Assembly (NCBI GenBank): GCA_030037225.1
Contig: JASHRU010000006.1
Coordinates: forward strand, 1 to 33,768
Length of the DNA stretch: 33,768 nt
Direction: 5' to 3'
From: Candidatus Acidiferrales bacterium
GTDB lineage: Bacteria; Acidobacteriota; Terriglobia; Acidiferrales; UBA7541
Shown here: in pieces, positions 1,778 to 4,280 of the stretch
Layout of the letters: the number at the start of each line of letters is the position of its first letter
Numbering within the stretch: the first letter of the stretch is position 1
Translations under genes and position numbers: made by a program
The notes under the pieces: generated by a model
Database searches by the model: none
Told to the model about the DNA's origin: nothing
Seen by the model: the letters and a program-made list of their open reading frames with translations, nothing else

Positions 1778-2935
1778 TTATCCGAGTTGCAGCATGCGGT
1801 CGAGGGCGACGCGGGCCCAACGGCGCTCGTTCTCCGGGACGCTGATGCGATTCACCACGGTGCCTTCAAGCAGGTTGTCGAGCGTCCAGAGCAGGTGCTG
1901 CGGCGTGATGCGGAACATGGTGGTGCAAACGCAGACGTGCGGATCGAGGGAGATCACGGTGCGGTCGGTGAGCGTCCTCGCCAGGCGATTGACGAGGTGA
2001 ATCTCCGTGCCCACGGCCCAGGAGCTGCCAGAGGACGCAGCGGTGATTTTTTTCAGGATGCCTTCAGTCGAGCCGGTGTCGTCGGCCTTCTGGACAACTT
2101 CGAAGCGACACTCCGGATGGACGATCACACGCATTCCGGGATGCTCGGCGCGGACGCGATCCACGTGTTCAGGCAGGAAGCGCTGGTGGACGGAACAGTA
2201 GCCTTTCCACAGAATCATTTTCGCTTTGCGGATCTGCTGTTCCGTGTTGCCACCCAATTCCTGCTCGGGATCCCAGACAACCATCTGATCGAGCGGGATT
2301 CCCATGCCGTAAGCGGTGTTGCGGCCGAGGTGCTCGTCCGGAAGAAAAAGCGCGCGCTGGCCCTGCGTGAACGCCCACTGGAGCACGCGCGCGGCGTTGG
2401 AACTGGTTACTACAGAACCGCCATGCTGGCCGGTGAAGGCTTTGATGGCGGCGGTGGAATTCATGTATGTGACGGGCACCACACCCAGTCCGCCAAGGGA
2501 TTCCAGTTCGGCCCAGCACGTTTCCACCTGGCCGATCTCGGCCATGTCTGCCATGGAGCAGCCGGCGTTCAGGTCTGGCAGGATGACCACCTGGCCCGGG
2601 CGGCGGAGCACGTCCGCGCTCTCGGCCATAAAGTGCACGCCGCAGAAGACGATGTATTTTGCATCGCATCCAGCGGCCTGCTGGGCCAGCTTCAGCGAAT
2701 CGCCACGGAATCGCGCGAAGCGGATAACTTCGTCGCGCTGGTAGTGATGGCCCAAGATCACCAGATCGGAACCCAGCTTTTGGACGGCGGCACCGATACG
2801 CTCGTCGAGCGTCGTATCGGGCGCGAGCAGGTAGCTCGAAAAGTCGCAGCCGACGCCCTTCTCCATCTCGGGCACACGCAGGGTAGATGGCTGTGCCAGT
2901 GAGGCGAGTCTTCCGAGTTCAATTAATTGCGGCAT
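1778..2935 (-). CDS. nadA: Quinolinate synthase NadA
   Basis: 385 aa; LGHHYQRDEVIRFA, GCDAKYIVFCGVHFMAESADVL, HPECRFEVVQKADDTGSTEGI, and Fe-S ligand Cys near the C-terminus. Confidence 0.95.
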   Translation of the reverse strand: MPQLIELGRLASLAQPSTLRVPEMEKGVGCDFSSYLLAPDTTLDERIGAAVQKLGSDLVILGHHYQRDEVIRFARFRGDSLKLAQQAAGCDAKYIVFCGVHFMAESADVLRRPGQVVILPDLNAGCSMADMAEIGQVETCWAELESLGGLGVVPVTYMNSTAAIKAFTGQHGGSVVTSSNAARVLQWAFTQGQRALFLPDEHLGRNTAYGMGIPLDQMVVWDPEQELGGNTEQQIRKAKMILWKGYCSVHQRFLPEHVDRVRAEHPGMRVIVHPECRFEVVQKADDTGSTEGILKKITAASSGSSWAVGTEIHLVNRLARTLTDRTVISLDPHVCVCTTMFRITPQHLLWTLDNLLEGTVVNRISVPENERRWARVALDRMLQLG

Positions 2936-3037: not shown

Positions 3038-4021
3038 CTAGCCACCAATGAACACCATGGTGCGCGAGGGAGGGACGAAATCGGGTTCGTTGATGCGATG
3101 GCCCTCCTCCTTTTCGAGCACCCTCTCTTTGATGAAATTCGCCAGGTCGAGGTCACTCGCGCCGTTACGAAGGAACGGACGCAGGTCATGGTCCTGTTGG
3201 CTGAAGAGGCAGGTCCGCAGCTTTCCGTCTGCGGTGATCCGGATGCGCGAGCAGTGCCCGCAAAAGGGTTCGGTGACGGGGGCAATCAGGCCGACTTCGC
3301 CCGGGGCGCCGTCGGCGAAGCGGAATTTGCGCGCGGTTTCGCTAGGTTCGTGCGGGATTTGGACCAATGGCCAGCGGGCGTCAATGCGACGGCGGATCTC
3401 CGCGGCCGGGACCACTACGTCACGGGACCAATGGCGGTCCGCGTCGAGGGGCATGAATTCGATGAAGCGCATGGTGATGCCGGACGAGCGGGCGAGCGCG
3501 GCGAAGGCTTCCACCTCGTCGTCGTTCAGGCCACGAACGAGCACCGCGTTTACTTTCACCGGCCGGAGCAGGCTCGCCTGCGCGGCGTGAATGCCGTCCA
3601 TGACGCTGTGGAATTTGCGAGTGCGCGTAATGCGTTCGAATTTTGCGGCGTCGAGCGAGTCAAGGCTGATATTGATGCGATGGAGGCCGGCGCGAACCAG
3701 ACGGTCGCAGTTTTCGGCCAGTAATTGGCCATTGGTGGTCATCGAGAGATCTTGGAATCCGAGGTCGCGCAGCCGGGAGATGAATTCGATCACGCCGGGA
3801 CGCACCATGGGCTCGCCGCCTGTGACGCGCACCTTTTCGAGCCCCAGGCCGCGCAGCACCAGCGCCACGCGGACGAGTTCGTCCCAGGAAAGCAGTTCGT
3901 CCTCGGGACGGTAATTCTCCGGGTCGGCGGAGCGGCAATAGACGCACCGGAAATTGCAGCGGTCCGTTACGGAGACGCGCACATCGGTGATCCGGCGGCC
4001 GAATTTGTCGTGTAGTGGCAT
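3038..4021 (-). CDS. moaA: GTP 3',8-cyclase MoaA (molybdopterin biosynthesis, radical SAM)
   Basis: DRCNFRCVYC (CX3CX2C), VRVTGGEPMVR, second cluster FCGHCSRIRITADGKLRTCLFS, C-terminal MVFIGG (the conserved GG tail). Confidence 0.96.
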   Translation of the reverse strand: MPLHDKFGRRITDVRVSVTDRCNFRCVYCRSADPENYRPEDELLSWDELVRVALVLRGLGLEKVRVTGGEPMVRPGVIEFISRLRDLGFQDLSMTTNGQLLAENCDRLVRAGLHRINISLDSLDAAKFERITRTRKFHSVMDGIHAAQASLLRPVKVNAVLVRGLNDDEVEAFAALARSSGITMRFIEFMPLDADRHWSRDVVVPAAEIRRRIDARWPLVQIPHEPSETARKFRFADGAPGEVGLIAPVTEPFCGHCSRIRITADGKLRTCLFSQQDHDLRPFLRNGASDLDLANFIKERVLEKEEGHRINEPDFVPPSRTMVFIGG

Positions 4022-4107
4022 AGCTCTTCAGGTTCCACGAGCGCGGGAAAGGGAGAAGACTGGCGGGGATGGCTCAGTCAGCTCCGGACGGCGAGACCGT
4101 TCCGGGC

Positions 4108-4245
4108 GTTCTCCTTTCCAAGCACGGGAGGCGATAGCGTTTCCGCCATCACCCTCGGCCCCGTTCGGTCCCTCGCGGGAGAGGACGGGACACCGCCCCA
4201 GCAGCCATAGGAGACACTCCCACAGGCCACAGGGGTCGGAGGAAC
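4108..4245 (-). ncRNA. Moco (molybdenum cofactor) riboswitch candidate in moaA 5' leader
   Basis: Minus-strand RNA upstream of moaA contains TCGCCTCCCGTGCTTGGAAAGG (4134..4113), nearly identical to the 3' core of the E. coli moaA Moco RNA as I remember it. It is preceded by a 10-bp stem GGTGATGGCG-GAAA-CGCTATCGCC (4153..4130) with a GNRA loop and two G-U pairs. A second hairpin has a GCGA loop (CCCGT..TCCC-GCGA-GGGA..ACGGG, 4189..4160), and a third lies at 4227..4204. Confidence 0.85.
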
Positions 4246-4251
4246 AGTTGT

Positions 4252-4280
4252 ATTTTACGCTCTACGAACTGCGGCCGCAA
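4252..4280 (-). promoter_or_regulatory. Sigma70-like promoter for the moaA leader
   Basis: Minus strand TTGCGG (4280..4275), 17 nt, TAAAAT (4257..4252). Predicted TSS near 4245, just before the structured leader. Confidence 0.6.

Follow-up and report, generated by a model that had tools for sequence, protein, structure and literature searches.

The moaA leader in the stretch of DNA analyzed here (33,768 nucleotides of a Candidatus Acidiferrales contig; referred to as the window) is a genuine Moco-class riboswitch, otherwise ordinary for its class, and we consider it probable (roughly 85%) that it serves as a Moco-sensing OFF switch on moaA, the OFF direction being what the riboswitch class and the E. 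coli homologue would lead one to expect. The aptamer itself belongs to a known class; the only unusual part is a replacement of the expression platform, the nature of which we treat as a hypothesis.

A Moco aptamer with its own promoter upstream of moaA

On the reverse strand, positions 4095..4253 (aptamer with flanks) matched the Rfam family RF01055 (Moco RNA) in a cmscan search with 74.3 bits (E 2.3e-16; curated cut-off, 36 bits), the alignment spanning the full length of the model (1-135 of 135). RF01055 was the only Rfam family above its cut-off in the window, and the whole genome (G000) holds a single copy. The leader fold was 4.4 sd below dinucleotide shuffles, with none of 200 shuffles being equally stable. 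When the window copy was aligned with 25 relatives from the same class (n = 26), at least one compensatory change was found in 20 of the 33 consensus pairs, P1 to P5 were recovered by RNAalifold, and UUGGAAAGG, CCUCCC, and AGGGU were invariant. The original prediction had proposed a Moco riboswitch with its own promoter 5' of moaA and had named an Rfam scan, folding, and covariation in related leaders as checks; the full-length match, the stability, and the covariation, together with the conservation of the promoter and the assignment of MoaA at equivalog level, bear it out.

The window aptamer contains the conserved core CCUCCC...UUGGAAAGG and stems P1, P2, P4, and P5. In the RF01055 alignment, the 5' strand of P1 (GUUCCUCC, with one bulged C) lies at 4238..4245 (minus strand, as for all features below); P2, also seen in the family consensus fold, occupies 4195..4235; and P5 (CC/GG), the core UUGGAAAGG, and the P1 3' strand GGAGAAC fall within 4108..4128. 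The P3 hairpin, with approximate limits of 4158..4192, was drawn from MFE and constrained folds, and P3 covaries among relatives. P4 (4130..4153) could be read from the sequence itself as well as from the RF01055 alignment and covariation: as first described, it is a 10-bp stem (arms 4153-4144 and 4139-4130) with a GAAA tetraloop and two G.U pairs, and it leads into UCGCCUCCCGUGCUUGGAAAGG. The E. coli moaA leader segment named for comparison was also correct, the fetched E. coli leader having acttcgcctcccgtatctggaaaggtgtacATG. P2 carries a variant GAAA-receptor bulge (CCUGUG...UAUGG, against the consensus CCUAAG...UAUGG), a candidate receptor for the GAAA loop of P4. Overall, the RNA resembles the E. 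coli moaA riboswitch in having P1 to P5, the GAAA loop of P4, a CCUCCC...UUGGAAAGG-type core, and a position 5' of moaA, and by analogy the same OFF direction would be expected here.

The promoter is present as originally described, with a -35-like element TTGCGG at 4275..4280, a 17-nucleotide spacer, and a -10-like element TAAAAT at 4252..4257. In an aptamer-anchored alignment, about 60 family leaders have TTGC-17/18-TAnnnT ahead of the aptamer, with TTGC kept at this spacing, and positions T1, A2, and T6 of the -10 element were invariant in the 60 aligned leaders, A2 and T6 being somewhat favored by the choice of the best -10 match in each leader. A simple sigma-70 scan of the window did not report TTGCGG-17-TAAAAT because its -35 element fits at only three of six positions. 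From the promoter spacing, the predicted transcript start falls almost exactly at P1.

The regulated gene, directly 3' of the RNA as it is in nearly all family copies, occupies 3038..4021 and encodes MoaA (GTP 3',8-cyclase), as indicated by PF04055, PF06463, and a score of 362.5 bits against the equivalog-level profile TIGR02666 (cut-off, 284). It is the sole full-length MoaA match in a profile search of the genome, and its product is 93% identical to that of the nearest named relative, a Candidatus Acidiferrales MAG in the Acidobacteriota; we take the host to be a soil acidobacterium. The interval 4280-4108 first assigned to the riboswitch does hold the promoter and the aptamer but is too short as a limit, as the regulatory region extends to the ATG at 4021. 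On the same strand, nadA (quinolinate synthase) and a DUF2203 open reading frame, together spanning 2935..1778, lie 3' of moaA, and the riboswitch might also act on NAD synthesis if they are cotranscribed with moaA.

One Rfam family, RF01055, takes in both Moco and tungsten cofactor (Tuco) RNAs, and MoaA serves both cofactors alike, so a Tuco riboswitch had to be weighed. P3, the presence of which is a criterion for the Moco type (Regulski 2008, PMC2408646), is a long stable hairpin both in G000 and in the sister species of the same genus (G001; moaA leader locus L028, L004). Further, the G000 genome encodes the molybdoenzyme domains PF00384 (molybdopterin) and PF02738 (MoCoBD), whereas AFOR_N (PF02730) of the tungsten AOR was not found in it, an absence that is provisional at 92.5% completeness, at which an AOR could be missed. 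The presence of P3 and of molybdoenzymes and the lack of an AFOR_N match therefore favor Moco as the likely ligand, and we rejected the Tuco reading, which we regard as very improbable.

Terminators in the family and their loss in one genus

RF01055 was found in 60 of the 89 genomes of the window's family, in 101 of 399 sampled genomes of the class, and in 51 of 347 sampled genomes of the phylum Acidobacteriota, which places the Moco riboswitch firmly in this phylum; Acidobacteria are absent from the text of Regulski et al. 2008 (PMC2408646), and a literature search on Moco riboswitches in Acidobacteria yielded a single paper, a general survey of structured RNAs. A Moco RNA followed by an intrinsic terminator is the second platform type in that paper (PMC2408646), and of 62 family leaders subjected to a strict scan, 47 had a hairpin followed by a U run. 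In leaders that the strict scan missed or skipped, a hairpin was evident by inspection, mostly with a U run, although in a few cases it was degenerate or its U run was weak. Nearly all leaders of the family have an intrinsic terminator, and among those inspected, only the leaders of G000 and G001 bore no trace of one; the relative L027 is uninformative, its contig beginning about 43 nt 5' of moaA. Two family genomes have two Moco RNAs each: G020 (L009 and L025), in which the L009 copy has a terminator-like hairpin that lacks a U run, and G081 (L143 and L094), with terminators on both.

In the family relatives, the 5' arm and loop of the terminator complement the core of the aptamer in the region of GUGCUUGGAA. 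The core paired with its own terminator loop at a mean of -10.0 kcal/mol, versus -7.7 kcal/mol with swapped loops (p 1e-4; 54 leaders, with their relatedness corrected for in part), and the result was the same with the 48 leaders left after duplicate removal. Judged by their anatomy, these relatives are terminator/antiterminator OFF switches, and the covariation of the terminator loop with the core suggests that pairing of the core with downstream sequence was probably the ancestral switching device.

The window's leader shares with the Moco RNAs of its sister genera the promoter layout, the aptamer, the middle hairpin, the gene, and a downstream sequence able to pair with the core, but it lacks both a terminator hairpin and a U run. 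No T run of four or more occurs in 4120-4016, from the aptamer to the ATG, and a terminator scan of the window returned nothing. The absence of the terminator from the window's genus is solid. An assembly error is a negligible explanation for it: G000 and G001 are both draft assemblies, yet the two species, at 26% platform divergence, agree in length and layout and show no indel. In the MoaA tree, G000 and G001 are sister to the terminator-bearing G011 within the family (support, 100/94). As the pair is nested among terminator bearers, the simplest account is a loss of the terminator in the lineage of the two species; we rejected a horizontal transfer of moaA and its leader from a terminator-less family, as the tree places the genus within its own family. 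With the terminator lost, the output step would appear to have been rewired in this genus.

The middle hairpin, CCGG-a-ACGG-ucucg-CCGU-CCGG, was seen in the sequence and in folds at 4084..4105 and had been correctly described as lacking a U run. Many relatives have a hairpin at the same place, between the aptamer and the terminator. A short GACUG/CAGUC hairpin also lies between the aptamer and the ATG in the genus.

A candidate anti-aptamer tract and the output step

Between the aptamer and the ATG, at 4046..4057, a C/U-rich and G-poor tract, UUCUCCCUUUCC, is a candidate anti-aptamer element. It can pair, with one bulge, with aptamer segment GGAAAGGAGAA at 4119-4109, a strand different from the GUGCUUGGAA strand engaged in the sister genera. 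The MFEs of both species of the genus have the same anti-aptamer topology, and when P1 and P5 were forced closed in constrained folds, the tract was left largely unpaired in both. Its composition ranks in the top 0.2-1.2% of window segments. Compared with shuffles, the anti-aptamer duplex energy was not significant (p 0.10 in the window and 0.41 in the sister species), and substitutions between G000 and G001 kept the complementarity no better than random ones. We therefore rejected the window's anti-aptamer pairing as a stand-alone significant signal. Taking the folds of both species together with the parallel cases described below, we lean slightly toward the presence of an anti-aptamer helix in this genus.

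We hypothesize the following switch. The moaA transcript would start just 5' of P1. When Moco is absent, GGAAAGGAGAA would pair with UUCUCCCUUUCC, the tract would be hidden, and RNA polymerase would get to moaA. When Moco is present, P1 and P5 would close on the core, the tract would be freed as a single strand, and moaA expression would stop, possibly because Rho loads on the exposed C/U-rich, G-poor tract. We put this Rho step at a little under even odds. In E. coli, Rho-dependent 3' ends occur in the moaA leader (PMC7815308), for which RNA-seq also gives evidence of termination (PMC12121620). In the mgtA and ribB riboswitches, a rut site becomes exposed when ligand is bound (PMC10085680), and our proposal has the same logic, namely, that the ligand exposes a Rho loading site. 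A Rho gene is encoded in G000. The composition of the tract is not independent evidence for Rho, as any sequence complementary to GGAAAGGAGAA would be expected to be rich in pyrimidines.

From the missing U run, the original prediction had judged translational control likelier than termination. The U run is indeed missing, but the terminator of the relatives has been lost here and Rho fits at least equally well; in addition, the Shine-Dalgarno (SD)-like region before the ATG is weak and poorly conserved. If the output were translational, the tract freed in the bound state, or neighboring sequence, would keep the ribosome off the moaA start. The absence of a terminator agrees with this, and -20..-1 accessibility falls in the bound model (from 0.60 to 0.49 and from 0.51 to 0.39), although the change is small. 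By inspection, UCUUC (4059-4055) can pair with GAAGA (4029-4025) 5' of the ATG, but the sister species does not keep this pairing, and SD sequestration through UCUUC/GAAGA was rejected. In E. coli, a few nucleotides separate GGAAAGG from the ATG, and the RBS lies within the P1-forming nucleotides (PMC2408646). This precedent speaks for translational control; however, an E. coli-type platform (start codon no more than about 10 nt from GGAAAGG) was not found in the window, where the ATG at 4021 lies about 90 nt past the end of GGAAAGG at 4113, with the middle hairpin and the pyrimidine tract in between. Neither species of the genus shows more than weak SD-like pairing (-3.3 kcal/mol, versus -13.4 kcal/mol for a strong SD), which, with the poor conservation of the last bases before the ATG, disfavors SD occlusion. 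Given the weak SD, the freed C/U-rich tract, the Rho gene, and the E. coli and mgtA/ribB precedents, we rank Rho first and translation second, a translational output being rather unlikely.

The leader may also be a degenerate switch, in which the aptamer is intact but the terminator is gone and moaA is constitutive or otherwise controlled in this genus. The terminator loss and an anti-aptamer pairing that is neither significant alone nor detectably preserved would fit such decay. However, the two species share 93% identity in the aptamer, versus 65% in the sequence upstream and 74% in the platform, and all invariant core positions are kept. Conservation above that of the flanks is hard to explain without function, and we consider degeneration improbable compared with a working Moco-sensing OFF switch.

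Terminator-less leaders elsewhere in the class and a possible convergent platform replacement

Terminators are also absent from another family of the class (f11) and from leader L029. Many of these leaders combine a middle hairpin with a pyrimidine tract complementary to the aptamer 3' strand; in L029, for example, the tract UUUUCCUUUCC lies opposite GGAAAGGAAA. Complementarity pooled over 28 terminator-less leaders, which are not fully independent, was significant (Fisher p 1.1e-4; swap p 0.002). Further, the C-over-G bubble was stronger (p 5e-10) and pyrimidine runs were longer (p 2e-6) in terminator-less than in terminator-bearing leaders, an excess of pyrimidines that arises in part because the tract complements the purine-rich core.

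Several f11 leaders (L213, L215, and L224, and also G190 and G686) contain long imperfect inverted repeats between the aptamer and moaA, with arms of 25 to 32 nt and tandem sub-repeats such as CTGAGTGCTGAATG. In some f11 leaders, the 3' arm of the long repeat contains the start codon or immediately precedes it, and in some the 5' arm opens with AAGCAC, complementary to GUGCUU of the core. The long repeats are thus a possible start-codon-sequestering platform, and where a long hairpin buries or abuts the start codon, translation is indicated as the level of control in those f11 leaders.

Taken together, these patterns allow the tentative suggestion that, within one Acidobacteriota family, a terminator platform has been swapped for a terminator-less platform with a pyrimidine-tract anti-aptamer, either Rho gated or translational, and that a distant family of the class has converged on such a platform. 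Such leaders amount to a natural experiment, as close relatives share the same aptamer, promoter, and gene and differ in their output devices, and they make the evolutionary replacement of riboswitch expression platforms directly testable.
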